IMG/VR virus record: IMGVR_UViG_3300045107_000306
Coordinates: 1 to 36,378 of that record
Length of the DNA: 36,378 nt
Strand: one strand, 5' to 3'
From: a virus
The notes under the pieces were generated by a model. It ran no database searches and had not been told where the DNA came from. It was given only the letters and a program-made list of their open reading frames with translations. The first letter of the stretch is position 1. Every line of letters begins with the position of its first letter. Shown piece by piece: positions 5,845-31,345 of the stretch. The translations under genes were made by a program, and so were the position numbers.

Positions 5845-5849
5845 GGAAA

Positions 5850-5879
5850 GCCCGCCCGGGGCGGCAACCCCGGACGGGC
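5850..5879 (+). terminator. Strong stem-loop between transposase and MuB genes
   Basis: GCCCG-C-CCGGGG, loop CGGCAA, CCCCGG-A-CGGGC: eleven G-C pairs with a single mismatch, six bases after the transposase stop. No T-tract follows, so it is more likely an attenuator or mRNA-processing/stability barrier than a full terminator; it could set the ratio of A to B protein. Confidence 0.5.
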
Positions 5880-5913
5880 CAGCAGTGCAACGAGAAACAG
5901 GAGCTTGAGTAGC

Positions 5914-14645: not shown

Positions 14646-15184
14646 TGCCCAAGCCCTCCTCCATCGACCGCCTCCCGGAAGAGGTGCGCAGCAAGATCGC
14701 CGAGCTGCGCCGCAACGGCCGCACCCTCGACGAGATCCTGGACCACCTGCAGCAGCTGGACGTCGAGGTCAGCCGCTCGGCGCTGGGCCGCCACGTGAAA
14801 AGCCTGGCGCAGATCGGCGAGCAGATGCGTCGCGCCGAGACCATGGCGAAGTTCGTGGTCGAGCGGTTCGGCGAGGACAGCGACGACCGGCTGGGCCGGG
14901 CGAACATGCGCATCCTGCAGGGCGCCCTGCTGGAGATGCTGGCCGAGGATCGGATCGACGAGGAGACCGGCGCCCCGATCACCCTATCGGCCAAGGAGGC
15001 GAAGGAGCTGTCGCTCGCCGTGCAGCGCCTTGTGAGCGCGCAGCGGATGGATGCCGAGCGGGAGCTGCGCCTGCGCGCCGCCTTCAAGCGCGAGGCGACC
15101 GAGAAGCTGGACGCCGCCGGCCGCACCGGAGAGATCGACCCGGACGCCGTGGAGCGCGCCAAGCGAATCCTTGGCTTTGCCTGA
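14645..15184 (+). CDS. Small terminase subunit (DUF3486, Mu gp27-like)
   Basis: 179 residues from a GTG that overlaps the previous TAG by one base. The N-terminus carries an HTH (SIDRLPEEVRSKIAELRRNG, then EILDHLQQLDVEVSRSALGR). The rest is a long helical oligomerisation region. DUF3486 proteins recognise the packaging site and hand DNA to the large subunit; Mu-type packaging starts near the left end. TGATG overlap with the large terminase supports co-expression. Confidence 0.9.
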   Translation: MPKPSSIDRLPEEVRSKIAELRRNGRTLDEILDHLQQLDVEVSRSALGRHVKSLAQIGEQMRRAETMAKFVVERFGEDSDDRLGRANMRILQGALLEMLAEDRIDEETGAPITLSAKEAKELSLAVQRLVSAQRMDAERELRLRAAFKREATEKLDAAGRTGEIDPDAVERAKRILGFA

Positions 15185-16695: not shown

Positions 16696-16697
16696 TC

Positions 16698-18350
16698 ATG
16701 GTTCAGCTTGTCGATCGTTTCGGGCGCCCGTTGACGGCGAAGAAGGGCGACCTGACCCGCGAGGTGGCCGCGCCCGGGCTCACCGGCGTGCGCCAGGCGT
16801 GGGACGCGCGCACCGCTGTCGTCGGCCTTACGCCCGACCGCCTCGAGGCGATCCTGCGGCAGGCCGACCAGGGCGACCTGGATGCGCTGTTCACGCTCGC
16901 CCAGGAGATGGAGGAGCGGGACCCGCACTATGCCTCGGTCCTGCAGACCCGGAAGCTTTCGGTCGTGGCGCTCGAGCGCAAGGTGACCTGGACGAAGAAG
17001 CAGGCCGACGATCCGCGGGCCGAAGAGATCCAGGAGGCGTGCGAGGAGCTGCTCGAGGCCGACGAGATGGACCTCCTGATCCCGCACCTGATGGACAGCG
17101 TCGCGAAGCCCTACGCCGTGGCCGAGACCATCTGGCACAAGGGGCCGGATCGATGGACGCCGGAGCGCTACGAGGACCGAGATCCGCGCTGGTTCCAGCT
17201 GGATCGGCTTACGGGCAAGGAGCTGCGCCTGCGGGAGGTCGGCGCGCCGGACGGCGTGCCGCTGCCGCCGTTCACCTTCGTCTCGCAGTTCGCGGCCAAC
17301 AAGTCGGGCCTGATCGCGAGGCGGGGCCTGGCCCGCGTCGTCGCCTTCAGCTTCGTCTGCAAGCTCTACGGCCTGAAGGACTGGATGGCCTACGCGGAGA
17401 TCTTCGGCATCCCGCTCCGCCTGGGCAAGTACGGCGCGGGGGCGACCCCGGCCGACGTCGACGTCCTCAAGAGGGCCGTGTTCGGCCTCGGCTCCGACGC
17501 GGCCGCCGTGATCCCCGAGGGGATGACGATCGAGTTCCCGGCGCCGGCGAGCGGCACGGGCAACGCCGAGCTGTTCCACGCGCTGGTGGTGTTCATCGAC
17601 AACCAGGTGAGCAAGGCGGTCCTGGGCCAGACGGGTACGACCGACATGCAGAAGGGCGGCGGCTTCGCCCAGGCCAAGGTGCTCGACGGCGTCCGCACCG
17701 ACCTGAAGCAGGCGGACGCGAAGGCGGTGGGCGCCGCGATCCGCCGCGACATTCTCACCCCCTTCGTGCAGCTCAACTGGGGCCAGGACGCCCCGGTGCC
17801 GCGGGCCGAGCTGGTGGTCGAGGAGCCCGAGGACATGGAAGCCCTGGCGGGCTTCCTGGAACGGATGGTGCCGCTGGGCCTGCGGGTGGGCCAGTCCGAG
17901 ATCCGAAAGAAGGCGCGCCTCTCCGAACCGGCCGACGACGAGGAGGTGCTGTCGCCGCCGGCGAAGGCGGCCGCGATCGACCCCACCGATCCCAACGCGA
18001 AGCCAAAACCGACCCCGGGTGCCCCACCGAGCGCTGCGAACGACCCGGCAGCGCCGGCTCGCGACCCTGCGCTCGCCCGCACCGAACTCAGCGCCGAGGT
18101 GGCGGCGCGGGAGGCCGCCGATCGGCAGCTCGAGGAGGCCCAACTGGCCGGCCTCGAGGAGTGGCAGCAGACGTTCGCGCCGGAAGCCGCGGCGGTCATG
18201 GACCTGGTGAAGGGGGCCGGCAGCTTCGAGGAGATCTCGCGCGGGCTGGAGCGCATGGCTGCGGACCTGGCCGCGCCGCCCGCGGCGCGCGCCCTGGCCC
18301 GGGCGATGTTCGAGGCCGCGGTGATCGGCGAAGGCGGGCGGGAGGCCTAG
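16698..18350 (+). CDS. Portal protein (DUF935, Mu gp29-like)
   Basis: 550 residues (Mu gp29 is 512). It shows the DUF935 hallmarks: EMEERDPHYASVLQTRKLSV near residue 75-95, the central EIFGIPLRLGKYG, and FIDNQVSKAVLGQTGTTDM about residue 300. A proline/alanine-rich insert (about 430-465, KPKPTPGAPPSAANDPAAP) accounts for the extra length. It forms the dodecameric DNA gate at the capsid vertex. It starts two bases after the terminase stop and abuts the MuF gene. Confidence 0.94.
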   Translation: MVQLVDRFGRPLTAKKGDLTREVAAPGLTGVRQAWDARTAVVGLTPDRLEAILRQADQGDLDALFTLAQEMEERDPHYASVLQTRKLSVVALERKVTWTKKQADDPRAEEIQEACEELLEADEMDLLIPHLMDSVAKPYAVAETIWHKGPDRWTPERYEDRDPRWFQLDRLTGKELRLREVGAPDGVPLPPFTFVSQFAANKSGLIARRGLARVVAFSFVCKLYGLKDWMAYAEIFGIPLRLGKYGAGATPADVDVLKRAVFGLGSDAAAVIPEGMTIEFPAPASGTGNAELFHALVVFIDNQVSKAVLGQTGTTDMQKGGGFAQAKVLDGVRTDLKQADAKAVGAAIRRDILTPFVQLNWGQDAPVPRAELVVEEPEDMEALAGFLERMVPLGLRVGQSEIRKKARLSEPADDEEVLSPPAKAAAIDPTDPNAKPKPTPGAPPSAANDPAAPARDPALARTELSAEVAAREAADRQLEEAQLAGLEEWQQTFAPEAAAVMDLVKGAGSFEEISRGLERMAADLAAPPAARALARAMFEAAVIGEGGREA

Positions 18351-19709
18351 TTGGCCGACGAGCGCTTCATCTTCGATGCCGCCCCGGATCCGCGCGCCGT
18401 GGCGTTCCTGGAGGCGAAGGGCCTGAAGCGCTCCTGGCGCTGGCCATCGATGTGGCAGACCGAGCACGCCTACGCCTTCACCCTGGCCGGCGTGTATCGC
18501 CTCGACGTCCTGGCGGAGACCAAGCGCCTGGTGACGGCGGCGATCGCCGAGGGCCAGACGCTGGACGGGTTCAAGGCCGCGTTCGAGGCCAAGCTGCAGG
18601 GCCTGGGCTTCGCCGGCCCGCAGGTGGTCAACGACTTTGCGGAAGGTCCGCGCAAGGTGGAACTCACCGCGCCCTGGCGGGTGAAGGTGATCTACGACAC
18701 CAACGTGCGCCAGGCCTACGCGGCGTCCGCCTGGCAGGCGATCGAGGACACGGCGGCCGACTTCCCGGCGCTGCAGTACCACCACACCCCGCAGCAGCAT
18801 CCTCGGCTCAACCACCTGGCCTGGGACAAGATGGTGCTGCCGGTCACGCACCCCTTCTGGAAGACGAACTTCCCGCCCAACGGCTGGTACTGCAAATGCT
18901 TCACCATCCAAGTCAGCGTCGACGAGCTGGCCAGCGGCGCGGTGAAGCTCACGCCCGACGACGCCCTGCACGCCACCGGCTACGACGAGCGCCCGTCGCG
19001 CTGGCGGGAGTGGCGCCATGGGCCCACCGGCCGGGTGGACCGCGCGCCGGAAGGGGTGACGCCGGCGTTTGCCTACAACCCGGGCATGGAGCGCCGGCGG
19101 AACCTCGGCGAGCTGCTGGAGCGGCGCGTCGAGGCGCTGGACGCCGACATGGCGCGGGCGGCCGCCGCCGACCTGGTGAACCTGCCGCTGTTCCACGACC
19201 TGGTCAGCGACGCGATCCGGATCGGACAGGCGCAGGCGGCCGCGCGCAGTGCGACGGCCGCGCGCCTGGTCGGCGGATCCGCCCGAAAGGCCGAGATCGA
19301 CCAGGCGGCCCAGGACGCCGCAGCCGCCGCCGCCGAGTTCCCGAAGGACAGCTGGCCGGTGGGCGTGGCGCCGGCCGAGATCCAGGCCCTGGCGCCCGGC
19401 GCGGGCCGGCTGGTGGTGGCGAACGCCTCGACGATAGGCCACAGCGCCCACATCCACCCGACGACGCCGGCGGACTGGCGGCGCGTGCAGCAGCTGCTGG
19501 AAGGCGGCGAGGCCTGGCAGGGCGAGGGCGGCGAGCTGGTGTTCTTCGGCCGGTTCGACGACGCCCGCGGCGAGCGGACCTGGACGATGGCGCTGAAGGC
19601 CGTGGCTGGGGCCTGGCGGGTCCGGACGCTGTTCGAGAGTTCGCCGCGACGCCGGGCGCGGATGATCCGCCGGTTGCGTCAGGTGCGAGGCGAGAAGAGC
19701 GGCGGCTAG
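18351..19709 (+). CDS. F: MuF minor head protein with C-terminal nuclease-like (PBECR-type) domain
   Basis: 452 residues from a TTG (GGGAGG six bases upstream). Residues about 25-220 are the Phage_Mu_F/SPP1 gp7 domain, with VKVIYDTNVRQAYAASAWQA, HPFWKTNFPPNGWYCKCFTI and surrounding segments. It is an internal head-maturation protein. Residues about 334-443 form a second unit: HSAHIHP (364-370), a central helix (WRRVQQLLEGGEAW), and strands with Lys416 (MALKAVAGAW) and RTLFESSPRR. This layout resembles the phage Barnase-EndoU-ColicinE5/D-RelE-like domains often fused to MuF proteins. Nuclease activity is inference; a purely structural tail is possible. It is the last gene of late operon 1. Confidence 0.88.
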   Translation: MADERFIFDAAPDPRAVAFLEAKGLKRSWRWPSMWQTEHAYAFTLAGVYRLDVLAETKRLVTAAIAEGQTLDGFKAAFEAKLQGLGFAGPQVVNDFAEGPRKVELTAPWRVKVIYDTNVRQAYAASAWQAIEDTAADFPALQYHHTPQQHPRLNHLAWDKMVLPVTHPFWKTNFPPNGWYCKCFTIQVSVDELASGAVKLTPDDALHATGYDERPSRWREWRHGPTGRVDRAPEGVTPAFAYNPGMERRRNLGELLERRVEALDADMARAAAADLVNLPLFHDLVSDAIRIGQAQAAARSATAARLVGGSARKAEIDQAAQDAAAAAAEFPKDSWPVGVAPAEIQALAPGAGRLVVANASTIGHSAHIHPTTPADWRRVQQLLEGGEAWQGEGGELVFFGRFDDARGERTWTMALKAVAGAWRVRTLFESSPRRRARMIRRLRQVRGEKSGG

Positions 19710-19996
19710 GGGTACGCTACCTTCCCCATCGGTCCCGCGGGTCGCCCCGCCGGCCGGCTTCGCGAATTGACTTAGCCGCCGCGGCCAATATGCGCCGCCG
19801 AGCCCCGGATTTCAAATGGCCGTGGAAGCCCCGTAGAAGCCCGCTGACAGGCCTTGACGTCCGGCGCGCCGCGGCAGGGCTAGCGGAAAACCCCCAGCGG
19901 GCCTGTAGACCCGTTTGAAGGCGTTCGAAGGGCCATCCTGGCGCCCGGGTGCGGGGCGGGTCGGCCGCCTTCGGCCGTGTTCCTGGCGGCGGGTGA
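19710..19996. other. Intergenic segment between late operons
   Basis: This holds no confident gene. A 42-codon frame (19791-19919, starting MRRRAPDF, very basic) is open but lacks a ribosome site. Visible elements are a CGGCCG-CCTT-CGGCCG hairpin at 19962-19977, which may end late operon 1 despite having no T-tract, and a degenerate relative of the late promoter core at 19779-19810. Late promoter 2 follows directly. Confidence 0.55.
19779..19810 (+). repeat. Degenerate copy of the late promoter 2 core
   Basis: CCGCGG, three bases, then ATATGCGCCGCCGA (19788-19801) and CCCGGAT. The same order occurs in late promoter 2: CCGCGG, two bases, ATATGCGCCGCCGA (20018-20031) and CCCGAT. The dyad's left arm is missing here, so it is probably not active. 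It looks like the remnant of a duplication. Confidence 0.5.
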
Positions 19997-20043
19997 GGCG
20001 GACAACTGTCCGCGGAGATATGCGCCGCCGACATCCCGATACT
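19997..20043 (+). promoter_or_regulatory. Late promoter 2: Mor-type dyad and -10 element
   Basis: An exact second copy of the 23-bp block (19997-20019) with dyad GCGGACA-AC-TGTCCGC at 19998-20013. The -10 is GATACT (20038-20043), better than at promoter 1. The expected transcription start is at about 20050, so the dyad centre is near -44. It has no -35 box. It drives the protease/scaffold, capsid and tail genes. The first codon of the protease gene is at 20052. Confidence 0.75.
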
Positions 20044-20051
20044 CACCCGGC

Positions 20052-21131
20052 ATGTCGAAGCCCGCAACGCAAATCCCGGCTCACCTGGTTCTCGCCCTCG
20101 CCAACTCAGCGAGGGCCGAAGAGGTTGCATTCGGCCTGGCGCTGGACCTGTCGCTGGCGTTCGCCGGCGCCGAGGACCGCAAGGCTGCGCCGAAGTGGGT
20201 GCCGCTGCTGCCCGCTCCCGACGCCAAGGGTGAGATCGTCGCCCGCGACGGCCGGAAATGGACGCTGAAGGATCCGGCCGTGGTGGTCGCCCACTTCCAG
20301 CAGTACGGCGCCGACATCCCGCTGGACCTGGAGCACGCCACCCACCTGCTGGCGCCGGAAGGAAAGCCGGCCCCCGCGCAGGCCTGGATCCAGGAGATGC
20401 AGGTCCGCGAAGACCGCTCCACCTGGGGCCGCGTCGAGTGGACGCCGGCGGGCCTGGCGTCGTGGCAGTCGGGCGGCTGGAAGTACGTCTCCCCCGGCAT
20501 CCTCCACGACGACGCCCGCGAGATCTTCGGCCTGGCCTCCGCAGGCCTGGTCACCCGTCCCGCGCTCCATCTGCCGGCGCTCGCCCGCAGTGGAAGCAGG
20601 AACCCCACCCAGAAGGACGAAACCTCCATGACGACTGTCGCTCTCGCGACGCTCGCCGCCGCCGCAGGCCTTGCCGCCTCGGCGACGGAAGCGGACGTGA
20701 TCGCCGCGCTCTCCGCCGGCCGCCAGGCCCAGGCGGACCTGAAAGACCCCACCAAGTTCGTGCCGGCGGCCGACCTGGCCGCGGCGCAGACGCGCGCCTC
20801 CAACGCCGAAACCGCGCTCGCGGCCATCCAGAAGGACGGCGCGGAGAAGGCGGCCGTGGCGCTGGTCGACGAGGCGATCGCCGCGGGCAAGCTCGCGCCG
20901 GCCGCCAAGGCCCACTGGCTCGACATCGCCCGTGAGGCCCCGGAGAAGTTCAAGGCGGCGGTCGCCGCGATGCCCGTGACGCTCGAGGTCAGCAAGACCC
21001 GCGAGAAGCCGGATGGCCAGGACGGGGCAAAGGACGAGAACGGCCTCACCGCCGACCAGCTCGCCCTCTGCTCGCAGCTCAGCCTCGACCCGAAAGCCTT
21101 CGCCGCGAACCTCCCGAAGGAGACGAAGTAG
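20052..21131 (+). CDS. I: Prohead protease (Mu gpI-like) with nested scaffold
   Basis: 359 residues. The N-terminal protease part has the Mu gpI core: KWVPLLPAP, RDGRKWTLKDP, IPLDLEHATHL (with a conserved Asp-x-Glu-His), WGRVEWTPAG and KYVSPGILHDD, ending near FGLASAGLVTRPAL. The C-terminal part from residue 193 is an alanine-rich helical scaffold. It matures the capsid and degrades the scaffold. No ribosome site precedes the ATG, which sits at the predicted transcription start, so the mRNA may be leaderless. Confidence 0.92.
   Translation: MSKPATQIPAHLVLALANSARAEEVAFGLALDLSLAFAGAEDRKAAPKWVPLLPAPDAKGEIVARDGRKWTLKDPAVVVAHFQQYGADIPLDLEHATHLLAPEGKPAPAQAWIQEMQVREDRSTWGRVEWTPAGLASWQSGGWKYVSPGILHDDAREIFGLASAGLVTRPALHLPALARSGSRNPTQKDETSMTTVALATLAAAAGLAASATEADVIAALSAGRQAQADLKDPTKFVPAADLAAAQTRASNAETALAAIQKDGAEKAAVALVDEAIAAGKLAPAAKAHWLDIAREAPEKFKAAVAAMPVTLEVSKTREKPDGQDGAKDENGLTADQLALCSQLSLDPKAFAANLPKETK
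20628..21131 (+). CDS. Z: Capsid scaffold protein from an internal start (Mu gpZ-like)
   Basis: In-frame ATG at codon 193 of the protease gene, with AAGGA at 20613-20617, ten bases upstream. The 167-residue product (MTTVALATLAAAAGLAASAT onward) is the scaffold part alone: long alanine/lysine/glutamate helices that would fill and shape the prohead. Mu uses the same nested I/Z arrangement. The ribosome site is much better than that of the full-length start, so the short form should be more abundant, as a scaffold needs. Confidence 0.7.
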   Translation: MTTVALATLAAAAGLAASATEADVIAALSAGRQAQADLKDPTKFVPAADLAAAQTRASNAETALAAIQKDGAEKAAVALVDEAIAAGKLAPAAKAHWLDIAREAPEKFKAAVAAMPVTLEVSKTREKPDGQDGAKDENGLTADQLALCSQLSLDPKAFAANLPKETK

Positions 21132-21914
21132 ATGGCCGCCTCGTCCGTTGAACGGCTGCGCAAGTCGCGCGCCGGCGATCACATCAACCTGCCGGTCAAG
21201 GCCAACTCGCAGATCCTGCGGGGCTGCATGGTCATGCAGATCGGCCTGGTCGCCGCGAACGCCGCAGCCGCGGCCTCGCGCGCCGAGCTGGATTCTATCC
21301 AGGTGCTCGGCCTGGCCGTCGACAGCGTGGTCGGCGGCGCCGCGGACGGCGACGTCCGTGTCCAGGTGGAGCGCCGGGAGGTCTTCCAGGTCGCCAACTC
21401 GGCCGGTGGCGACGAGATCACGGTCGCCGACATCGGCGAGCTGTGCTTCCTGGTGGACAACCAGACCGTCGCCAAGACCATCGGCGCCGGCCTGCGTCCG
21501 ATCGCCGGCCGGATCGAGGACGTCGACGCGAACGGCGTGTGGGTGAACTTCCAGTTCGCCCGCGGACCGCGCCGCCATGTGCTGCAGTTCGCGATCAACG
21601 AGACCGACACCCTGGCCGGCACCTCCCAGGAGCTGCTCTCGCCGGTCGTCGGCGCGATCACCCAGCTCGACGTGACCGTCCAGAAGGCGGTCACCACGGG
21701 CGGCGACGTGACCGCCAGCGTGGGCGGCGTGGCCGTCGACGGCCTGGCCTGCACGATCGCGGACGGGGCCGCCAAGGGCGCCCGGGTCACCGATACGCCG
21801 ACCGCCGGACATGCGACCACGATCGTGGCGGTCGGCTCCCGCATCCAGGTCGTCCCCGCCGCGGCGTTCAACGTCGCCGGCGCGGTCTCCGGCCTCCTCG
21901 AAATCACCTACTAA
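21132..21914 (+). CDS. Capsid decoration/cement-like protein (Mu gp33 position)
   Basis: 260 residues, beginning directly after the protease stop. The N-terminal half has the beta-rich pattern seen in small capsid cement proteins placed before gpT (LPVKANSQILRGCMVMQIGL, then VLGLAVDSVVGGAADGDVRV). The C-terminal half (about 165-260) is a separate beta domain rich in V, T and G. The assignment to a decoration role is from position and composition rather than a clear motif. Confidence 0.65.
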   Translation: MAASSVERLRKSRAGDHINLPVKANSQILRGCMVMQIGLVAANAAAAASRAELDSIQVLGLAVDSVVGGAADGDVRVQVERREVFQVANSAGGDEITVADIGELCFLVDNQTVAKTIGAGLRPIAGRIEDVDANGVWVNFQFARGPRRHVLQFAINETDTLAGTSQELLSPVVGAITQLDVTVQKAVTTGGDVTASVGGVAVDGLACTIADGAAKGARVTDTPTAGHATTIVAVGSRIQVVPAAAFNVAGAVSGLLEITY

Positions 21915-21925
21915 GGGAGGGCTCG

Positions 21926-22807
21926 TTGCCCAACGTCATCAGCGGAACGCTGCTCCGGAACCTGTTCACCGGGTTCAAGACCAGCTTCCAGAACGGCTTC
22001 GCCGGCGTCACGCCGGCCTGGAGCCAGATCGCCACCAAGGTCGCCTCCATGGGCGCCGAGGAAGACTACGGCTGGCTGGGCGACTGGCCCGCGATCCGCG
22101 AGTGGATCGGCGACCGCGTCCTCGAGGAGCTGGCCGGCTACTCCTACACGGTCAAGAACCGCGACTTCGAGAGCACGGTGCGCGTGAAGCGCAACCACAT
22201 CGAGGACGACAAGCTCGGCATCTACCGGCCGATGTTCGAGGGCCTGGGCCAGGAAGTGGCCCTGTTCCCGGACAAGCTCATCTTCGCGCTGCTCGCCGCC
22301 GGCGCCACGACCAAGTGCTACGACGGCCAGTACTTCTTCGACACCGACCACCCCGTCGCCGGCGGCGTCGCCTCCAACCATGGCGGCGGCGCGGGCACGC
22401 CCTGGTTCCTGCTGGACACCACCCGGCCGCTGAAGCCGCTGATCTACCAGGAGCGGCAGGCCTTCGGCTTCGCGGCGCTCGACCGCGACACCGACGAGAA
22501 CGTCTTCATGCGGAAGGAGTACATTTACGGGACCGATGGCCGGGCGAACGCCGGCTTCGGCTTCTGGCAGATGGCCTTCATGTCGCGGCAGACGCTCGAC
22601 GCCGCCGGCTATGAAGCCGCCCGGGCCGCCATGCGCAGCCTGAAGCGCGACAACGGCGAACCTCTGGGCGTCCGCCCGAACCTGCTGGTGGTCCCCGGCT
22701 CGCTCGAGGGCGCGGGCCGCCGCCTCCTGAAGAACGACCTGGCCGCCGGCGGCGCCTCGAACGAGTGGGCCGGCACCGCCGACTTGCTGGTCGCCGACTT
22801 CCTGTAG
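21926..22807 (+). CDS. T: Major capsid protein (Mu gpT-like)
   Basis: 293 residues (Mu gpT is 305). Family features are the N-terminus with LLRNLFTGFKTSFQNGF, the segment GDWPAIREWIGDRVLEELAG, then YTVKNRDFESTVRVKRNHIE, and the central YFFDTDHP. It is an HK97-fold shell protein. The start is TTG, unusual for the most abundant virion protein, but it has a strong GGGAGG at 21915-21920 and the next ATG would remove the conserved N-terminus. Confidence 0.94.
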   Translation: MPNVISGTLLRNLFTGFKTSFQNGFAGVTPAWSQIATKVASMGAEEDYGWLGDWPAIREWIGDRVLEELAGYSYTVKNRDFESTVRVKRNHIEDDKLGIYRPMFEGLGQEVALFPDKLIFALLAAGATTKCYDGQYFFDTDHPVAGGVASNHGGGAGTPWFLLDTTRPLKPLIYQERQAFGFAALDRDTDENVFMRKEYIYGTDGRANAGFGFWQMAFMSRQTLDAAGYEAARAAMRSLKRDNGEPLGVRPNLLVVPGSLEGAGRRLLKNDLAAGGASNEWAGTADLLVADFL

Positions 22808-22814
22808 GCGACCA

Positions 22815-23408
22815 ATGGCCAAAGCCCCCACTCCCAAGAAGCCGGTCGCGGAGAAGCCCGCGACCGCATCGGCCCCCACCGCGCCCTCTCCCGCGGTCGG
22901 GGCCACCCCATCCGAGGGCGCCGGGGCGGCTACGGCCGCCCCCGAAGCCGGGGCCGGCGCGTCGGCCCCGGTGGACAGGAGCGCCAGCGCCGGCGGCCAG
23001 GATACCGCCGGTGCGGAAGGCGGCGCGGCGGCGAACGTCGGGGGCGTCGCCGCGCCGTCGATCGCCGAGCTGGTCGCCGAGTTCCGCGCGGCCGGCGCGG
23101 AGCTGCTTTCGGCGTACATCCTGCTGCGCAACGCCGCGTTGTCGGGCGCCGCCGAGGATGCCGCGGTCGCGCTGGACGCGATCTCCGAGCTGAACGCGGA
23201 TCTGCCGCTGGGGGTCAGCGCCTTGCGGCTGAAGCTCGAGGCGTCTGATGGTGAGCTGGTGGCCATCGAGGGCAAGTCCCGCGATGGCAAGCCCTTCCGG
23301 CGCGCCGGCCACGTCTTCGGCGCTGACTTCCAGTCCTATCTCGTCAGCAGGGACGCGCTCGAGCGGATCCGCGCCGACCACGGCATCGTCACGCGGGATC
23401 CCGCCTGA
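22815..23408 (+). CDS. Head-region protein with low-complexity N-terminus (Mu gp35-like)
   Basis: 197 residues. Residues 1-80 are an alanine/proline/glycine-rich low-complexity arm starting MAKAPTPKKPVAEKPATA. The C-terminal 110 residues contain a folded part with LRLKLEASDGELVAIEGKSR and KPFRRAGHVFGADFQSY, a pattern of the small HI1506/Mu gp35-type proteins found behind the capsid gene. Probably a virion accessory; function not proven in any phage I know of. Confidence 0.7.
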   Translation: MAKAPTPKKPVAEKPATASAPTAPSPAVGATPSEGAGAATAAPEAGAGASAPVDRSASAGGQDTAGAEGGAAANVGGVAAPSIAELVAEFRAAGAELLSAYILLRNAALSGAAEDAAVALDAISELNADLPLGVSALRLKLEASDGELVAIEGKSRDGKPFRRAGHVFGADFQSYLVSRDALERIRADHGIVTRDPA

Positions 23409-23623
23409 TGGCCCCGGTCGCCGCCCCCTGTCCTGATGCGGTCGGCGAGACCGCCATGCAGCTGGCCTACCGCCAGCAGCGGGCGGTCTGGCGCGGCCAA
23501 TTCCTGGACCTGGCGGCGGCCGGCGCTTTCCGAGCTCCGGAACACCTGCAGCCTGGTCTGCAGGCCCACCTCTTCCTTGATGCGGCCATGCCCATCGACC
23601 AGGCCGCCGCGGAGGCCGCGTGA
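23408..23623 (+). CDS. Small hypothetical protein
   Basis: 71 residues from an ATG in a TGATG overlap, ending with a GTGA overlap. Helical. The middle (YRQQRAVWRGQFLDLAAAGA) has no match I recognise. Kept for its tight coupling to neighbours. Confidence 0.55.
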   Translation: MAPVAAPCPDAVGETAMQLAYRQQRAVWRGQFLDLAAAGAFRAPEHLQPGLQAHLFLDAAMPIDQAAAEAA

Positions 23624-23889
23624 GCCGCGCCTTCGACATCGTGGTGGCGGCGATGATGGCCGACCTGCGCCGCCAGGAATGCCGGCTCCAGCCTTACGGC
23701 TCCGAGTTGGACAGCGGCTACGATGGCGCGCGTTTCGACGTGGCCCAGACTGCGGCTGCCGGCCTGCGCGCCCTGCGGAACCTCGACGACGAGGCGCTGA
23801 TCGAGATCATCGAGGGGTGCGCCGCGATGGAAGGCGTCCAGCACGGCCTGGTGTCGATCCTCGACGCCGTTCTGCGAGGCCGGCCGTGA
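23620..23889 (+). CDS. Small hypothetical protein
   Basis: 89 residues from a GTG. Helical, with acidic segments (LDDEALIEIIEGCAAMEG). No family recognised. It overlaps the DUF1320 gene by 4 bases. Confidence 0.58.
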   Translation: MSRAFDIVVAAMMADLRRQECRLQPYGSELDSGYDGARFDVAQTAAAGLRALRNLDDEALIEIIEGCAAMEGVQHGLVSILDAVLRGRP

Positions 23890-24299
23890 CCTTCGCGAGC
23901 GCCCAGGATCTCGTCACGCGCTACGGACAGCAGGAGATCCTGCTGCTGGCCGACCGCGACGGCGACCAGCTGGCGGACGCCGGCGTGCTCGAGGGGGCGC
24001 TGGCCGACGCGGACGCGGAGATCATCTCCGAGCTGGCGGGCTCCGTCACGATCGACACCGCCAACCCGCCCCGCAACCTGGTGCGCCTCTCGTGCCAGAT
24101 CGCGCGGTATCGGCTCTACGGCGCGAACCCGCCCGAGGCGGCGCGCAACGACTACCTGGACGCCGTCAAGTTCCTCCGCCTGGTGCGCGAGGGCAAAGCC
24201 AGCCTCGACGGCGGCGACGCCCAGCCCACCGTGACGCCGCCGCCGAGCTTCGCCGCGGCCTCGGAGCCGGGCAACCGCATCTTCCGGCGGGGGCTCTGA
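23886..24299 (+). CDS. DUF1320 head-tail connector protein (Mu gp36-like)
   Basis: 137 residues. Family features are the N-terminal FASAQDLVTRYGQQEILLLA, the ALADADAEIISELAG region, and the helical CQIARYRLYGANPPEAARND. DUF1320 proteins sit at the head completion/connector position in Mu-like phages. Start GTG in a GTGA overlap. Confidence 0.88.
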   Translation: MTFASAQDLVTRYGQQEILLLADRDGDQLADAGVLEGALADADAEIISELAGSVTIDTANPPRNLVRLSCQIARYRLYGANPPEAARNDYLDAVKFLRLVREGKASLDGGDAQPTVTPPPSFAAASEPGNRIFRRGL

Positions 24300-24790
24300 T
24301 GTCGATCCGCTTCCGCGTCACCCTGGACGACGAGCCGCGCCGGCTGCTGGCGGCTGCCGCCGCACGCGGCGAGGACATGCGCCCGGCGCTGCGGGCGATG
24401 GGCCAAGCGGGCGTCGCACAGACGCAGCGGCGCTTCGTCACCAAGCGTGCGCCGGACGGATCGGCCTGGCGTCCGACCGACAAGCCCTCCGGGTCGACCA
24501 TGATCGCGAGCGGCCTCCTGCTGCGCTCGATCTCCGCCCGTCCGCCGTCCGACACGGCCGTCGAATGGGGTTCGAACCGCGTTTATGCGGCGATCCGCCA
24601 GCTCGGCGGGATCATCCGCGCGAAGGGTGGCGGCTACCTGCGATTCCGCGTGGGCGCCAACGGCGGCTGGGTGGCCCGAAAGGAGGTCAGGCAGCACGCG
24701 CGGCCCTACCTCGGCGTGAACGACCAGGACATGGCCGAGTTCGCGGCGATCGGGCTTCGCCACGTCGCCGGCCCTCTGGGAGGCCGCTGA
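24299..24790 (+). CDS. Phage virion morphogenesis protein (gpG/tail completion family)
   Basis: 163 residues. Matches the family by helix ALRAMGQAGVAQTQRRFVTK, the motif APDGSAWRP and the segment LLLRSISARPPSDTAVEWGS with a YAAIRQLGG strand. It helps to close the head or tail joint. TGATG overlaps on both sides. Confidence 0.87.
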   Translation: MSIRFRVTLDDEPRRLLAAAAARGEDMRPALRAMGQAGVAQTQRRFVTKRAPDGSAWRPTDKPSGSTMIASGLLLRSISARPPSDTAVEWGSNRVYAAIRQLGGIIRAKGGGYLRFRVGANGGWVARKEVRQHARPYLGVNDQDMAEFAAIGLRHVAGPLGGR

Positions 24791-25233
24791 TGGACATGCT
24801 TGACCTGGGGCTGGCGAAGGACCGCTTGGCGGCCAACGCGCCGTCGCTGCGCAACATCGGCTACGCGGCCGACTTCAACGCCGCCATGCAGCCGGGCGCC
24901 GTCATCGCCAGTCCCTCGGCGTTCGTGCTGATCACCGGCGAGGAGTGGATCCCGCCCCGCGATGCCTCTGCGCCCATGCGGCAGAGCGCGAACATCACCG
25001 TGAGCGTCCTGGTGGCGGTCAAGCTGGCCGGCCCGCTGGGCGCCAACGGCCTGGCCGCCCTCGAGCAGCCGGTCCGTGAGGCCCGCCTCGCCATGTTCGC
25101 CTGGCACCACCCAGACGCGGAAGGGCCGTTCGCTCTCTCGGGCGGCGGCATCGAGGACTTCAACGGCCAGACCGGCGTCCTCCTCTATCGCCTCGACTTC
25201 ACCGCCCTCGCCAAGATCCAGGAGACCCTGTGA
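24790..25233 (+). CDS. Tail terminator-like protein (Mu gp37/DUF1834-like)
   Basis: 147 residues. A beta-alpha pattern with PSLRNIGYAADFNAAMQPG, SPSAFVLITGEEWIPPRD and YRLDFTALAKI resembles the gp37/DUF1834 tail terminators that cap the tail tube. It directly follows the gpG-like gene and precedes the tube gene by one small gene, the usual order. Confidence 0.78.
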   Translation: MDMLDLGLAKDRLAANAPSLRNIGYAADFNAAMQPGAVIASPSAFVLITGEEWIPPRDASAPMRQSANITVSVLVAVKLAGPLGANGLAALEQPVREARLAMFAWHHPDAEGPFALSGGGIEDFNGQTGVLLYRLDFTALAKIQETL

Positions 25234-25496
25234 GCCGCAAGCCCAAGGCCGCCGAACAGGCCGCCGACACCACGACCGCCGGCGCGCGCCGCCGCCCCGA
25301 GCTGGACGACGCCTCCGTCCGCGCCGCCTGCAAGGCTTCGATCGCCGCCGGCTTCCCGCCGCCGGCGCAGCTGGTCGAGCAGCTGGGCGGCGCCCACGCT
25401 GTGGCGGCGCTCGAGGCCGAGGTGGCCGCAGAGCAGCGGAGCGCCGACCCGGCCGGCGCGCCCGCTGAAACCCCCAACCAAAGCCAGGAGGGCTAA
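25230..25496 (+). CDS. Small hypothetical protein before the tail tube (Mu gp38 position)
   Basis: 88 residues from a GTG in a GTGA overlap. Basic N-terminus (MSRKPKAAEQAADTTTAGAR), a short folded middle, and a polar tail. Mu and its relatives carry a small gene at this place; no function is known. Confidence 0.6.
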   Translation: MSRKPKAAEQAADTTTAGARRRPELDDASVRAACKASIAAGFPPPAQLVEQLGGAHAVAALEAEVAAEQRSADPAGAPAETPNQSQEG

Positions 25497-25501
25497 GGTC
25501 C

Positions 25502-26446
25502 ATGGACCGCCAGCTGCTGCTCGCGAAGCAGGAAGTCACATACGGCGTCGACCCGGTCACAGCCGCGGTCGACACCATCTGGGCCGAGGAGGTCCGCCAC
25601 CAGCTCAGCGGCCAACGCGTCAAGCCAAGCCCTGCGAAGCCGGGCGTCGGGCCCGTCGCGAGCCACGTGTACGGCGAGTACTGCACGGTCACCTTCAAGG
25701 TGCCGCTCGCGGGCTCCGGTGTTGCGGGCACCGCCCCCAAATGGGGCAAGCTCATGAAGGCCAGCGGCTGGCTGGAGACCATCGTGGCCGCCACGTCGGT
25801 GACGTACGCGCTCCTGGCCGACCCGCTGACCGCCTCGACCTCCCTGACGCTGAAGTGGCGCGATGGGAATCGGCGTGTGCACCTGGTCACCGGCTTCAAG
25901 GCCAAGGTCGATTTCGAGCTCTCGGCCGGGAACCGCCCGATGCTGGTCTTCACCGGCAAGGGGCTGCACAACGACGTCACCGAGGCCGGCGCTGTCCTGG
26001 CGCATGCGGACGCCGACTTCTCTGGCTGGCTGGACGCCAAGCCGGTGGCCTCCGGCACCACCACCTTCGCCTACGCGGCGGTGACGGGCTTGGGTCTGCG
26101 CGAGCTGAGCTTCCAGCAGACCGACAACGTGAAGTTCGTCGATGTGCCCGAGCAGGAGAACGTCCGCCTCCTGGGCGAGCGCGCCTTCACGGGCAAGATC
26201 GCCATCACGTGCCCCCTGCCGTCCGTCCTGAACCTCGAGAGCAAGTGGAAGGCCGGGACGGTCGACACCTGGTCGATGGTGCACGGGGGCACGGCCGGGA
26301 ACATCGCGACCATCAACGGTCGCAGCCAGCTGGTCGAGCCGAGCTACGAGCGCAATCAGGACGGCGACGACATCGCGAACGCGGGCATCGAGCTCGTGCC
26401 GTCCTCGCTCACCACCGACAACGACCTGGCCGTCGTCCTGACGTAA
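25502..26446 (+). CDS. Tail tube protein (siphovirus type)
   Basis: 314 residues. The N-terminus LLAKQEVTYGVDPVTAAVDT and the central VTFKVPLAGSG, MLVFTGKGLHND and SFQQTDNVKFVDV fit the long tail tube proteins of non-contractile Mu-like phages (Pseudomonas B3/D3112 kind). It polymerises around the tape measure. There is no sheath gene ahead of it, in contrast to Mu. Start ATG with GGAGGGC upstream (25485-25492). Two hairpins follow its stop. Confidence 0.85.
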   Translation: MDRQLLLAKQEVTYGVDPVTAAVDTIWAEEVRHQLSGQRVKPSPAKPGVGPVASHVYGEYCTVTFKVPLAGSGVAGTAPKWGKLMKASGWLETIVAATSVTYALLADPLTASTSLTLKWRDGNRRVHLVTGFKAKVDFELSAGNRPMLVFTGKGLHNDVTEAGAVLAHADADFSGWLDAKPVASGTTTFAYAAVTGLGLRELSFQQTDNVKFVDVPEQENVRLLGERAFTGKIAITCPLPSVLNLESKWKAGTVDTWSMVHGGTAGNIATINGRSQLVEPSYERNQDGDDIANAGIELVPSSLTTDNDLAVVLT

Positions 26447-26519
26447 CCAGGCCTGGCTCTCCTACCCGGGAGAAGATGGGGGCGGCCCCACCCGGAGAGT
26501 TCCTGTGAAGGCCGCCCCC
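26447..26519 (+). terminator. Hairpin cluster after the tail tube gene (attenuator)
   Basis: Three elements in 73 bases: palindrome CCAGGCCTGG (26447-26456), stem TCTCC/GGAGA (26458-26473), and a perfect 10-bp stem GGGGGCGGCC (26478-26487) with GGCCGCCCCC (26510-26519). No T-tract follows. It probably lowers transcription or protects the 3' end of the abundant tube mRNA before the rarely needed chaperone and tape measure genes. Confidence 0.6.
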
Positions 26520-26559
26520 TGACTTCCGGGGAGCCCCATGCGGGCATTGGAGAAGACAC

Positions 26560-26886
26560 ATGAAGTTCGACTTTGGGAGCCTCGATCGGGACATCGAGGC
26601 GGACTGGCCCGTGCGCGTTTCTGTGCCGCAGGACGGCGGCAAGGCGCAGGAGGAGGTTTTCCTCGTCCGCTTCCGGGTGACGTCGGACGCGGACCTGATC
26701 AGCCTTGGCATGGGCGTCGAAGCGGCGAAGAAGTCGCTGCGCAAGTGCATCGTGGGCCTGGCGCAATCGGAAGGGCGCGAGCTGACCGACGAGCTGCTCA
26801 CCAAGATGCTGGACCGGGCCTACATCCGAACCGCCCTGGTCACCGCCTACAGCGAATTCTCCCTGGGCATCGAAGCAAAAAACTGA
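26560..26886 (+). CDS. Tail assembly chaperone, short form (G-like)
   Basis: 108 residues. It has a beta-rich N-terminus (MKFDFGSLDRDIEADWPVRV) and a helical second half (GMGVEAAKKSLRKCIVGLAQ, then DELLTKMLDRAYIRTALVTA). The position, between tube and tape measure, is that of lambda G and its functional analogues. Good ribosome site (GGAG, 26548-26551). The last codons, GCA AAA AAC TGA, contain a slippery heptamer that allows the longer GT product. Confidence 0.85.
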   Translation: MKFDFGSLDRDIEADWPVRVSVPQDGGKAQEEVFLVRFRVTSDADLISLGMGVEAAKKSLRKCIVGLAQSEGRELTDELLTKMLDRAYIRTALVTAYSEFSLGIEAKN

Positions 26887-27290
26887 AGCAGGCGGCCAGG
26901 CTGGTCGCGGTGGGACGCACCGGCGACAGCGAGGTCACCTCGGGCGAGCTGCAGCGGATGGCGGACGATCTCCGCGACCTTGCCGGCGCGACCGAGGCGC
27001 AGATCGAGGCGGCGTTGGCCCAGCATCGGGCCGCCGCCCAGCCGGCCGTCTTCCGCGTCCACCCCGCCAACGTGACGGCGGTGCGCCTGTTCCAGGGGAT
27101 GCAGACCCAGTGGAACATGATCGTCGCCTCTTCGCTCGGCGGCGCCCTGCTGCTGCAGACCGGCCTCAAGTACGAAGCGCTCGATCGCGTCGCCCGCGGC
27201 CTCGGCATCGAGGAAGGGCCTGACGACTTCCGCCGCCTGCAGCTGATGGAGGCCGAGGCCCTGCTCGCCTGGTCGGAGGCGCGGCGTTGA
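26560..27290 (+). CDS. Tail assembly chaperone, -1 frameshift product (GT-like)
   Basis: Read as join(26560..26883, 26883..27290): 243 residues. The -1 frame part (LKQAARLVAVGRTGDSEVTS to LLAWSEARR) has no start codon with a plausible ribosome site of its own. It contains NVTAVRLFQGMQTQWN and the ending GLKYEALDRVARGLGI, a DUF1799-like pattern typical of phage tail T domains. It would bind the tape measure while G keeps tube subunits apart. Its stop overlaps the tape measure TTG by three bases. Confidence 0.8.
26877..26883 (+). promoter_or_regulatory. Slippery heptamer A AAA AAC for -1 frameshifting
   Basis: In zero frame the codons are GCA AAA AAC followed directly by TGA, so the heptamer is perfectly phased (X XXY YYZ). 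A short hairpin (CGAGG-TCA-CCTCG near 26930) lies about 46 bases on, rather far to be a stimulator; the stop codon abutting the heptamer may suffice. Confidence 0.8.
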
Positions 27291-30200
27291 CCGACCTTGT
27301 CGCTCGTCTGCGCCTCGAGACGACTGGCGGCGGCCAGGCCGCTGGCGAGATCCGCCAGGTCGAAAGCGCGCTGGATCAGATCCCGGCGTCGGCCGCGGCC
27401 GCCGGCGCATCGTTCGACCGGCTCAGCGCCTCGCAGCAGGCCTTCGTGGCGCAGTACAGCCGCGGCGCCTCTGCCTTCGCATCGGACAGCACGAAGGTCG
27501 CCGGCGGCGCCCGCCTGGCCGGCCATGAGATCCTGAACCTTTCGCGGAACATCGCCGACGTGGGCGTCTCGGCGGCGATGAACATGAACCCGCTGATGAT
27601 CCTCATCCAGCAGGGTCCGCAGATCGCCGACGTGTTCCAGCAAGCCGCGGCGCGAGGCGTGTCGTTCAAGTCGGCACTGGGGGAGCTGGGCGGGATGGCC
27701 CTGTCCGTCCTGGGGCGAGGCGGCCCCATCCTGGTCGGCGTCGGTGTCCTGGGCATGCTGGTCGCCGCCTTCGTCGAAGGATCCAACGAGGCTGCCGACT
27801 TCCAGAACACACTCGCGGCGACCGGCAACTACGCCGGCCTGACCGCCCAGGCCTATGAGGACATGGCCGCGCGGATCTCCAAGGCCACCGGCGAGAGCGT
27901 GCGGACCAGCAAGGCCGGGATCAGCCAGCTGGTGGCCACGGGCCAGTTCTCGGCTGCGACGATCGAGAAGATGACCTTGGCGGCCGAGCGGTACAGTCAG
28001 CTCACCGGCAAGAGCACTCAGGAGATCCTGAAGGACTACGCCGGCATGTCGCAGGGCGTGACGGATTGGGCGGTGAAGCACGCCCTGGCGCACCACGACC
28101 TGACGCTGGCGCAGATCAAGTACATCGAGAAGCTGGAGAAGTCGGGCCAGGCCGAGCGCGCCTACCAGCAGGCGATGGACGACATCAACGCGTCGATCCA
28201 GGGTCGCGCCGTGCCGGCCTACGGCTTGCTCGAGCGGACGTTGCATGACGTGGCGGCCGCCGCCTCGAACATGTGGGACAAGCTCCTCGGCATCGGCCGG
28301 CCCGACACCATCGAGGGCCAGATCGAGAAGGCCAAGGCGCGGCTGGCCGGCCTCAACTCTGCCTACAACTCCGACCTGGTGAAGAGCGGCCAGGGCGAGA
28401 ACGTCCTGCGCGCCCGGCGCGACACACAGCTGCACCTGGACCTGCTCCAGTTCAACAAGGCCGGCATCGACCAGGCGGCGGCTGCCGAGGCCAAGCGGGC
28501 CCAGGAGGAAGCGGACAAGATCCGCAACGCCTACCCGAAGGGCTCGAAGTCGAGCGCGGGCAAGTTCGACGGCAGCGACATGGCCATCGAGGCCGCGGCC
28601 CGCGCCGAGCTGCAGGCACGCATGGCCCTCACCAAGAACGTCGAGCAGGTGGCTGCGCTCAAGCTGCGCGAGATCGACGCCGAGCAGGCGATCCAGCGCG
28701 AGCGCGTCCAGCGCCAGGTGAAGGAAGGCTCAATCACCAAGGCCGCGGCCAAGACCGTGCTCGCGAAGCAGGCCGAAGCCGCGGCCCTGCAGCGCGAGCT
28801 GGTGCGCCGCGAGGAGGCCGCCGGTATCGCCGCGCGAGAGCTGGAACGGCGCCAGTCGATCGGCGGGCTGCTCGACCGCCAGGCGACGGCCGAGGCCGCA
28901 GCCGCGCGAACGGCTTCTGAGGCCAACCGCATAGAGCTTGCCGCCTTGAACCGTCGCCAGGCGCTGGAGCGCGATGCCCTGGCGGAGAAGAACCGACAGG
29001 CCGTGCAGGAGAAGGCGCTCACCGAGGCTGAGGCATTCGCCCTTGCCGTCCAGCTCGAGGCGACCCAGCAGGCCGAACGCGATCAGACTACCCGGGAGCA
29101 GCGGGCGCGCCTTGAGGAGGAAGCGCTTCGGGGTGCCATCGCGTCTCGCGAGAACCAGGTCGATCTCCTGGCCTCGGAGGGGGCGCTGCTGAAGTCGAGA
29201 GTCGCGCGCAACCGCGTCGAGCTGCAGATCCTGAAGGCCCAGCACGACATCGAGCGCGTGAAACTTCAGGAGGTCGCAGCCTCGGCGAACTCCAGCAAGA
29301 CCGAAGTGGCCATCGCCGAGGCCCGGCTGCGCGTGCTGGACAAGATCCAGGCCAACGAGGTGAAGCTTCTTGAGCAGCAGACGACGCTGCTCGAGACGGT
29401 CACCGAGGCCACCGATGCGGTGGCCGGCTTGAAGAATGCCTTTCGACGCGGCGACTGGGCACGGGCGCTCGCCGAGTTCCAGCGGACGATCGAGACCGCC
29501 GGGGATGCGCTGAGGAACCAAGGCCTCGGCGGGGGCCTGCTGACTGCTGGCACCGCGGCCGCCCAGCTCATCGGCGGACGGACAGGACGGGTCGCGGGGA
29601 CGTCGCTTGGGATCGCGGGCTTCGGTCTCGGCGTGGGGACCTATGCCGGCACCGCCGCCGGCGCCGCGGCGCTGGGCAGCATCGGTCTCAGCGCGGGGCT
29701 GATCAGCGGGATCGCGGCGGCCGCCCCGCCGATCGCGGCGGCCGCGGCTGTCCTCTACGCAGCCGCGAAGATCTTCAACATCGGCGGCAAGCCCTCGAAC
29801 AAGGGCGCCGGCGTCGACCTGGTCACCGGCCAGGTCACCGGCGACAAGCGCGACCAGGAGACCGAGAGCGCGGCCCGGAAGGCCGCCGAGACCATCCTGG
29901 GCATCCAGGACGCGCTCAAGTCCTACGGCCTGGATCTGAAGACCACGATCAACGGCCTTGTGCTGGGGACCCGCGACCCGACGCAGATTTACACGTCGAC
30001 CGGCAAGACCCTGACCAGCGCCAAGGGCGACGTCGGCGCCGCCGTCGACACCGCGCTGAAGGCGTTGATCGAGGGCGCGACGTTCCAGTCGGAGGCCCAG
30101 AAGAAGCTGGTCGAGAGCCTGGTCGCGACCGGCAAGGGGTTCGACGCGATCAACGAGGCGCTGGCCAGCTATGCGGCTGCCCAGAAGATCCCGCAGCAGA

Positions 30201-31345
30201 TCAACGACGCCATCCTGCAGCTCACCGACCCCAAGGCCTTCGCCATCGAGGAGCTGAAGCGGGCTCAGGAGGAACAGCGCAAGGCGCTGAAGGCCGCAGC
30301 CGACGCCGGCTACATCACCGCCGAAGTCTTCGCCGAGGCGTCGGCCAAGCTCGCCACTCTCGAGGGGCTGCAGCTCGCCGAGGTCATGAACCGCTTCTCG
30401 GACGCGGTGAACAAGAGCACCGAGGAGCTCGAGGAACAGGCGTCGCGCCTGCGGGGCTCGATTGTCGACCGCATCCTCGAGCTGACCGACCCCGCGGCCT
30501 ACCGCGTGAAGCGGGTGAACGACGACATCAATGCGCGCATCTCCGAGGCGCAGCCGCTGATCGCCGCCGGGGTCCTTGGTGAGGAGTTCCTGAGCTTGGC
30601 CGAGCAGCTGCGCGCGCTCGAGCTCGCCAAGCTGGCCGAGGAGATCGACGGGACCACGAAGGCCTTCCAGGACGCGCGACCGCGGCTCCTCTCCTGGCTC
30701 GACCAGGTGCGCGCCGGTCCGGCGAGTGAGACCTCGGCCCGGGCCCAGCGGGAAGAGGCGCTGCGGCAGTATCAGCGGGAGCTCGCCAAGGCGCAGGGCG
30801 GCGACGCGGCTGCTCTGGGCAGCATCACGTCTTACGCGGACCGGCTCATCGAGGCTGACCGGAGCGCGACGAGCTCGGCCAGCGCCCGGCTGGCGCTGCG
30901 GAACCAGGTGCTCGGCGAGATCGAGGGCCTCGCCGGCCGCGGCGCCCAAACCCCGGCTCAGGCGATCGCCCAGCTGCAGGCGCCGCTGGCGCAGCTGGCC
31001 CAGGCCTCGGCGGCCGAGCTGGCGGCGCTGACGCCGACCGGCAAGGCCGTGGTGATCGCCAACCTGCCCAGCATGCAGGCCATGTACGGCCAGGTGCTGA
31101 CCGGGCAGACCGACCGCCTGGTCGCGGCCAACGACCAGACCCGCGAGGAGATCGTGGCCGCCGTGAAGGCGCTGGCGGTCAACCAGGAACAGATCTTCAA
31201 GGCCTTCGCCGATCAGCTGCACGGGGCTCTGGCGGACCTCGCTCTCCAGGGCGCCGCGGCCGCGGCCGACCAGGTGGCCTTGCTGCAGGCCCAGGCCGAC
31301 GAGCTGCGCCTCCTGGGTGCCCGGGCGAGGGCGGACCGCTCATGA
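27287..31345 (+). CDS. Tape measure protein (lambda H-type)
   Basis: 1352 residues from a TTG. The N-terminal third matches the prophage tail length tape measure family: NPLMILIQQGPQIADVFQQA, then YAGLTAQAYEDMAARISKAT and HDLTLAQIKYIEKLEKSGQA. Residues about 420-720 are coiled coil. A strongly hydrophobic stretch at about 745-830 (for example ISGIAAAAPPIAAAAAVLYA) probably inserts in the host inner membrane at DNA entry; a shorter one is at about 143-165. By the usual 0.15 nm per residue the tail would be about 200 nm. Confidence 0.93.
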   Translation: MTDLVARLRLETTGGGQAAGEIRQVESALDQIPASAAAAGASFDRLSASQQAFVAQYSRGASAFASDSTKVAGGARLAGHEILNLSRNIADVGVSAAMNMNPLMILIQQGPQIADVFQQAAARGVSFKSALGELGGMALSVLGRGGPILVGVGVLGMLVAAFVEGSNEAADFQNTLAATGNYAGLTAQAYEDMAARISKATGESVRTSKAGISQLVATGQFSAATIEKMTLAAERYSQLTGKSTQEILKDYAGMSQGVTDWAVKHALAHHDLTLAQIKYIEKLEKSGQAERAYQQAMDDINASIQGRAVPAYGLLERTLHDVAAAASNMWDKLLGIGRPDTIEGQIEKAKARLAGLNSAYNSDLVKSGQGENVLRARRDTQLHLDLLQFNKAGIDQAAAAEAKRAQEEADKIRNAYPKGSKSSAGKFDGSDMAIEAAARAELQARMALTKNVEQVAALKLREIDAEQAIQRERVQRQVKEGSITKAAAKTVLAKQAEAAALQRELVRREEAAGIAARELERRQSIGGLLDRQATAEAAAARTASEANRIELAALNRRQALERDALAEKNRQAVQEKALTEAEAFALAVQLEATQQAERDQTTREQRARLEEEALRGAIASRENQVDLLASEGALLKSRVARNRVELQILKAQHDIERVKLQEVAASANSSKTEVAIAEARLRVLDKIQANEVKLLEQQTTLLETVTEATDAVAGLKNAFRRGDWARALAEFQRTIETAGDALRNQGLGGGLLTAGTAAAQLIGGRTGRVAGTSLGIAGFGLGVGTYAGTAAGAAALGSIGLSAGLISGIAAAAPPIAAAAAVLYAAAKIFNIGGKPSNKGAGVDLVTGQVTGDKRDQETESAARKAAETILGIQDALKSYGLDLKTTINGLVLGTRDPTQIYTSTGKTLTSAKGDVGAAVDTALKALIEGATFQSEAQKKLVESLVATGKGFDAINEALASYAAAQKIPQQINDAILQLTDPKAFAIEELKRAQEEQRKALKAAADAGYITAEVFAEASAKLATLEGLQLAEVMNRFSDAVNKSTEELEEQASRLRGSIVDRILELTDPAAYRVKRVNDDINARISEAQPLIAAGVLGEEFLSLAEQLRALELAKLAEEIDGTTKAFQDARPRLLSWLDQVRAGPASETSARAQREEALRQYQRELAKAQGGDAAALGSITSYADRLIEADRSATSSASARLALRNQVLGEIEGLAGRGAQTPAQAIAQLQAPLAQLAQASAAELAALTPTGKAVVIANLPSMQAMYGQVLTGQTDRLVAANDQTREEIVAAVKALAVNQEQIFKAFADQLHGALADLALQGAAAAADQVALLQAQADELRLLGARARADRS

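Follow-up and report, generated by a model that had tools for sequence, protein, structure and literature searches.

The G and T genes upstream of the tape measure gene

The window (the whole stretch of 36,378 nucleotides that was analyzed, IMG/VR virus record IMGVR_UViG_3300045107_000306) contains a G-like tail assembly chaperone gene followed, in the -1 frame, by a T-like domain that is long, carries a coding signal, and lies directly upstream of the tape measure gene (Table 1). G ends in GCA AAA AAC TGA; in the G frame, the slippery heptamer is split as A, AAA, and AAC, with zero bases between it and the TGA. AAAAAAC is present as a single copy in the window when both strands are considered, where 0.29 copies would be expected. 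A first-pass annotation had described this phased heptamer abutting the G-like stop codon and a -1 frame of 136 codons, and both descriptions were borne out: read from the CTG at 26883, the frame encodes 135 residues and ends at the stop codon at 27288-27290, which makes 136 codons including the stop. In-frame GC3 is 0.87 for G and 0.93 for the T domain, and the reading frame indicated by GC3 changes over from G to -1 between the 26800 and 26860 steps. This switch and the profile matches given below support the earlier proposal that the site joins G-like and T-like tail chaperones. The predicted GT fusion has 243 amino acids (108 from G and 135 from T), with the junction ...GIEAKN-LKQAAR... 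if both tRNAs slip. From the translations, its predicted Glu-C junction peptide is AKNLKQAARLVAVGRTGDSE, while trypsin would reduce the junction to NLK.

Table 1. Features of the G/T locus in the window
Feature	Position	Strand	Basis
G-like tail assembly chaperone ORF, 108 aa, C-terminus ...EAKN*	26560..26886	+	ORF list, translation, phrog_569, GC3
Slippery heptamer A AAA AAC, in phase	26877..26883	+	Sequence; related loci (see text)
0-frame stop TGA directly 3' of the heptamer (intercodon)	26884..26886	+	Sequence; adjacency in related sites (see text)
T-like domain in the -1 frame, DUF1799, 135 aa + stop, read from CTG after the predicted slip	26883..27290	+	Translation, profile matches, GC3
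Simple 7-bp stem-loop starting 8 nt 3' of the heptamer, candidate stimulator	26892..26908	+	Fold, -9.3 kcal/mol
Open T frame of 250 aa whose ATG follows GGGGAG; it overprints the whole of G and may offer another way to make T (unproven)	26538..27290	+	ORF list, sequence, clade comparison
Tape measure protein (TMP_2), listed TTG start overlapping the T stop as TTGA	27287..31345	+	ORF list, profile matches

The window T matched the Pfam family DUF1799 (PF08809) with an E value of 6e-8 (33.2 bits against a curated cutoff of 26) and phrog_680 with an E value of 1e-16, and the window G matched phrog_569 (E value, 5e-9). DUF1799 was the sole family reported for T in the Pfam search at an E value of 0.001, which returned no match to the lambda Phage_tail_T family (PF06223). 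At the same threshold, G had no Pfam match to TAC_4/DUF1789 (PF08748), and its link to proteins annotated as TAC 4 or pfam08748 runs via phrog_569 and gene order. In PHROGs, phrog_569 and phrog_680 are both labeled tail length tape measure protein, a label that is also carried by both the G and the T genes in RefSeq records, e.g., NC_041880 and NC_018454. Direct protein searches with G, T, and the T of a near relative against named phages gave nothing at 1e-5; the bridge from the window T to the named phages is formed by one distant T sequence from the viral contigs. No T relatives were found in a first scan of genome contigs, and a second scan gave three matches, which are chromosomal relatives in Caulobacter, a Phenylobacterium MAG, and Marivibrio. 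Among solved structures, G had no match, and the four matches of T, all to helicase-primase proteins with E values of 0.3 or worse, were taken as chance. When the N-terminus of the tape measure protein was used as the query in viral contigs, the sole match was the window's own sister contig.

No family match was found for the gene 5' of G (25502-26446), which would, by its position, encode the major tail protein. A transposase (phrog_310) and a DNA transposition protein (phrog_296) are encoded within 3742-6900 and a tail module with the tape measure gene within 15184-31345, and the record has the appearance of a long-tailed, Mu-like transposable phage. The same record contains two ParB-like genes (2235-3158 and 9233-10213) and, between the terminase and protease genes, an ORF of 1039 amino acids (16799-19918) with no PHROG or Pfam match at 0.001.

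The heptamer and the adjacent stop codon in related loci

We compared the site across three sets of related loci. Set 1 (102 loci) consisted of viral contigs and named phages and was drawn from the best 80 of 184 relatives and from 21 named records of 210 (982 at an E value of 0.1). Set 2 consisted of prophages selected solely by a match to the Pfam profile: a phylum sample of 398 genomes had DUF1799 in 30, a class sample of 385 genomes had it in 18, and 52 of 61 prophage places gave loci, while 9 gave none. Set 3 came from further viral contigs found with a second profile, in which 63 loci less 16 from contigs already included left 47 new loci. L004-L006, which are second copies of L073, L083, and L087, were left out of the counts, the named records L009-L011 (from tape measure or DNA similarity) were not counted, and the contig of L012 is identical to the window where compared. 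The counting scripts differed slightly across the sets in the limit set on the open G frame (50 or 55 codons) and in the reach past the match; the control families described below were counted with a near-identical script.

Conservation of the heptamer in relatives, which the first-pass annotation had named as a check, was found in every set. A phased X XXA AAC was present in 99 of the 102 loci of set 1, X XXA AAN in all 52 loci of set 2, and the heptamer in 45 of the 47 new loci of set 3, which corresponds to a phased X XXA AAN in 196 of 201 loci when the three sets are pooled, many of these being near-identical and one row being the window itself. The 196 sites were made up of 110 AAAAAAC, 84 GGGAAAC, one AAAAAAG, and one AAAAAAT. 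X was always A or G, and the last base was C in 194 sites. On a tree of 92 T sequences, at least 12 A/G switches were counted at X, which indicates conservation of the X XXY YYZ pattern as such, beyond a mere run of A.

The heptamer was not found in phiL7, Sf12, and Sushi of set 1 (it was present in 18 of the 21 named phages) or in L239 and L246 of set 3. In phiL7 (L104 890-910), the sequence is GTA AAA TAA, with only A AAA directly ahead of the stop. Sf12 (L108 885-905) has GCA AAG GTC TAA, placing GUC between the A/G run and the stop, and Sushi (L111 838-856) has GCA AAA GTT TAA, placing GUU between the A run and the stop. Despite lacking the full heptamer, all three have a T frame that still crosses the G stop.

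A stop codon lay directly 3' of the heptamer in 165 of the 196 sites (128 TGA, 28 TAA, and 9 TAG), namely, in 90/99, 43/52, and 32/45 sites of sets 1, 2, and 3, respectively, and in 17 of the 21 named phages. It was absent in 9/99, 9/52, and 13/45 sites, and at these 31 sites, where the stop lies farther away, the G tail reaches lengths of up to 35 codons. When the 151 loci of sets 1 and 2 were grouped into 75 clusters at 50% identity, 64 clusters had the touching stop, and on the tree of 92 representatives, the minimum numbers of changes were 9 for adjacency and 17 for stop identity. Within the same T genes, the slip site touched a stop in 32 of 35 clusters (set 1, 50% identity) versus 43 of 320 other CTN codons with a stop behind them in the other frame (P = 5e-25, with kinship corrected by clustering only). 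A touching stop forces the second T codon to begin with A or G; despite this constraint, the second T residue varies (I, K, T, M, S, V, or R), which suggests that it is the stop, and not the T protein, that is held.

The adjacent stop marks the DUF1799-type family, and two other tail chaperone families are mostly without it. For lambda-type T (PF06223; 20 loci, 17 of them with a candidate site), the stop touched the heptamer in 3 of 17 sites (Fisher, 2e-6 against 43/52). For P2 GpE (PF06528; 34 places, 4 of them without a locus, leaving 30 loci and 29 candidate sites), it did so in none of the 29 (Fisher, 2e-14 against 43/52); one more PF06528 site, TTTGGGC (L216), has a touching stop and was left out by the A/T rule. 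In lambda itself, the stop lies 15 nt from the heptamer, and mean distances to the stop of 26 nt and 36 nt are given for two other sets in the available text of PMC10885494. An informal comparison for a weak stop context around the sites revealed no pattern. Before TGA, any heptamer-final base other than C would produce a T-frame ATG, GTG, or TTG, and the heptamer-final C may also avoid a stop-start overlap. This leaves the C before TAA or TAG unexplained, as those sites have C too.

Stem-loops 3' of the site could act as stimulators. At the window site, the bases of the 7-bp stem listed in Table 1 are taken up by another, larger stem (26890-26940) in the minimum-energy fold of 26884-26944 (-30.4, z = -2.1), and the 91-nt fold showed no excess (z = -0.2). 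Across the viral set, stems beginning 4-11 nt 3' of the heptamer had a median of -23.7 versus -15.4 elsewhere in the same genes (P = 2e-11), and the prophage set gave a median of -24.3 behind the site versus -15.9 at other places (P = 8e-12), the control places for stem strength not being matched in GC. The shuffle z of the stems was -1.5 at the site versus -0.2 (P = 4e-5). A significant stem was absent at many loci, e.g., L023, L094, and L098, and among 7 close relatives, compensatory pairing was detected in 0 of 6 pairs. An SD-like sequence upstream of the site was present in 19/49 cases versus 85/343 at control places, a modest difference that we do not claim as a stimulator.

Probable programmed frameshifting, the possible role of the stop, and alternatives

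On sequence grounds, the site very probably directs a programmed -1 ribosomal frameshift of the lambda G/GT kind, which would make a minor GT fusion beside abundant G for tail assembly. Most ribosomes would decode AAC and then terminate at UGA. In a minority, tRNA-Lys and tRNA-Asn would re-pair on AAA AAA, and translation would resume from CUG, perhaps assisted by the stem-loop 3' of the stop. With UGA in the A site, the release factor would compete with late (E/P-site) slippage, and this competition would hold the GT:G ratio low and tie it to release-factor activity. Speaking against it, A AAA AAC is described as far less shift-prone in E. coli than A AAA AAG (PMC5009743, available text); speaking for it, a published reporter assay measured shifting at 6% and 7% for two genes from an HK97-like tail chaperone cluster (PMC3711429, available text).

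The first-pass annotation had suggested that a stop directly behind the slippery site may raise frameshift efficiency; published stops at other sites lowered -1 shifting in an RF2-sensitive manner. According to the available text of PMC4373837, the Tate laboratory found that, in human cells, apparent shifting dropped by about 70% when a stop replaced the codon behind the HIV-1 heptamer, that a stop there also reduced -1 shifting when a bacterial system was used, and that shifting in bacteria was abolished by additional RF2. They interpreted this to mean that slippage occurs while the next codon occupies the A site, with the caveat that the stop also shortens the reporter product. Based on these experiments at other sites, we tentatively suggest that the adjacent stop was selected as a brake on GT, a proposal to which we give somewhat less than even weight. 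Keeping the GT ratio low would be the most likely role of the stop, with coding economy as a close rival.

In the economy reading, G would simply end where T starts, so that no double-coding stretch exists, and the stop would have no effect on frameshifting. The long G tails at the distant-stop sites suggest that such a tail is dispensable, as economy would have it, but the lambda-T and P2-GpE families mostly lack the adjacent stop, and on the tree, stop identity turns over while adjacency mostly stays. We regard economy alone as possible but doubtful. The phiL7 site (A AAA plus stop) would fit slippage while the stop is in the A site, and Sf12 and Sushi, with GUC and GUU before the stop, are poorly explained by either the brake or the economy model.

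T could also be made by separate initiation from a start of its own, either alone or beside frameshifting; separate initiation is what the first-pass annotation had given as a ground for refuting the site. The candidates are the ATG at 26538, whose frame overprints G, and the internal GTG at 26910, ATG at 26958, and TTG at 27015. The first-pass annotation had seen no credible start for T. Within 15 codons upstream of the slip site, there was no T-frame start in 48 of 49 clusters, and in L101 and L106, there was none anywhere from the opening of the T frame to the core. The claim of no credible start is weakened, and not fully right, in view of the ATG at 26538. This codon stands behind GGGGAG, and all 8 members of the window clade that were examined have a T-frame ATG 7-22 nt upstream of the G ATG, with an SD-like sequence in all 7 that were scored (L015 unscored). 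In 15 of 49 clusters, the window included (TTG, T codon 44 counted from 0), the stretch separating the slip site from the T core does contain an in-frame start that has an SD-like sequence.

The T frame of the window clade is stop-free over the last 100 G codons in 8/8 members examined. Synonymous permutation kept it open in 0.06 to 1.0 of the trials per sequence, with a product of about 3e-4 that ignores kinship, and the frame was open in 26 of 92 clusters versus 11.9 expected; however, chance openness of the T frame is easily reached in high-GC genes. Substitutions in the clade were nearly flat across the codon positions of G (1117, 1045, and 1179), whereas T had a third-position excess (1383, 1288, and 1798). 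The T-frame residue identity across G was 0.36 versus 0.30 after permutation, but it is not distinctive, as overall codon identity was also raised (0.32 versus 0.277). Likewise, identical codons at shared residues exceeded expectation in G (0.694 versus 0.593), T (0.615 versus 0.567), and TMP (0.575 versus 0.530), but the excess was higher still in the longest upstream ORF (0.609 versus 0.433). Over the 92 clusters, T-frame ATGs upstream of G were not clearly enriched (14, clade included, versus 12 and 8 in the other frames), GC3 across 26538-26882 fits G alone, and the clade that has the T-frame ATG has also kept the heptamer. We consider separate initiation improbable, and the putative second T start in the window clade is unproven.

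Transcriptional slippage on the A6 run of the window, as opposed to ribosomal slippage, is very improbable, because GGGAAAC, with three A only and in the same phase, replaces AAAAAAC in 84 of the 196 family sites, and the A6 run falls short of the length (more than 7 A) tied to such slippage in the available text of PMC3711429.

Returning to the programmed ribosomal frameshift, a broader version can be formulated in which the stop would be a fixed part of the bacterial -1 signal in DUF1799-type phages (RRRAAAC-UGA/UAA plus stem-loop). The release factor would compete after translocation, and the chaperone ratio would be read from release-factor activity, making the signal a -1 counterpart of prfB; in the window clade, a second start in the overprinted frame would in addition make a T-containing protein. 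Taken as a whole, this version appears rather unlikely.

Existing annotation and comparison with known systems

The first-pass annotation had anticipated that automatic annotation would usually miss the product, in agreement with what we found: 20 of the 21 named phage records are annotated; G and T are entered as two distinct CDS in 17 of these, T is missing from 1, and a joined product is given in 2 (Smarc2 and Sushi). The annotated T start in RS1 (L106) is the CTG behind the heptamer and in HK578 (L103) the ATT after that CTG codon, neither of which is ATG, GTG, or TTG. For VarioGold, the tail assembly chaperone and the DUF1799 protein are given as two genes (PMC9658991, available text). 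For annotators, RRRAAAC followed by a stop can serve as a compact signature when the region 5' of the tape measure gene is screened.

Across the surveyed sites, the stop as intercodon emerges as a common rule, from which the two other tail chaperone families mostly depart. We found no statement of such a rule for DUF1799-type chaperones in the available text of the PMC literature; the main survey, Xu et al. 2004, lies outside it and so may carry the rule. The 165 sites, including those of HK578 and of the T1-like phage LeonhardEuler (recorded on E. coli K-12), could provide material for two questions: the timing of bacterial -1 slippage (before or after entry of the next codon into the A site) and the possible control of a structural-protein ratio by release factors.

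As in phage lambda gpG/gpGT, ribosomes would slip by -1 close to the 3' end of the first of two genes upstream of the tape measure gene, giving two products that share an N-terminus. It differs from lambda in its heptamer and spacing (A AAA AAC with 0 nt to the stop, versus GGGAAAG with 15 nt) and in its T, which belongs to DUF1799 and not to PF06223 at the threshold given above. In its T family and in the XXXAAAC-stop arrangement of 17 of the 21 named phages, the locus resembles the DUF1799-type (T1/HK578/TLS-like) tape measure chaperones. Among the best 80 of 184 relatives, the window T has 44-50% identity to the nearest and 29-44% to the others. The window clade differs from other DUF1799-type phages in its extra T-frame ATG, and Sf12 and Sushi differ in being without the heptamer. 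By description, the locus is also like the chaperones preceding the tape measure in the Caulobacter phages phiCbK and Colossus, for which AAAAAAC and GGGAAAC sites are given in the available text of PMC3556154. By sequence, the frameshift of the window itself is of a known kind; the noteworthy part is the stop next to the heptamer, which most family members share. A stop directly behind the heptamer is described for Rous sarcoma virus, barley yellow dwarf virus, and artificial HIV-1 UGA/UAG constructs (PMC4373837, available text). Unlike these stop-intercodon cases, which are eukaryotic viruses or reporters, the sites described here belong to a natural family of bacterial viruses.
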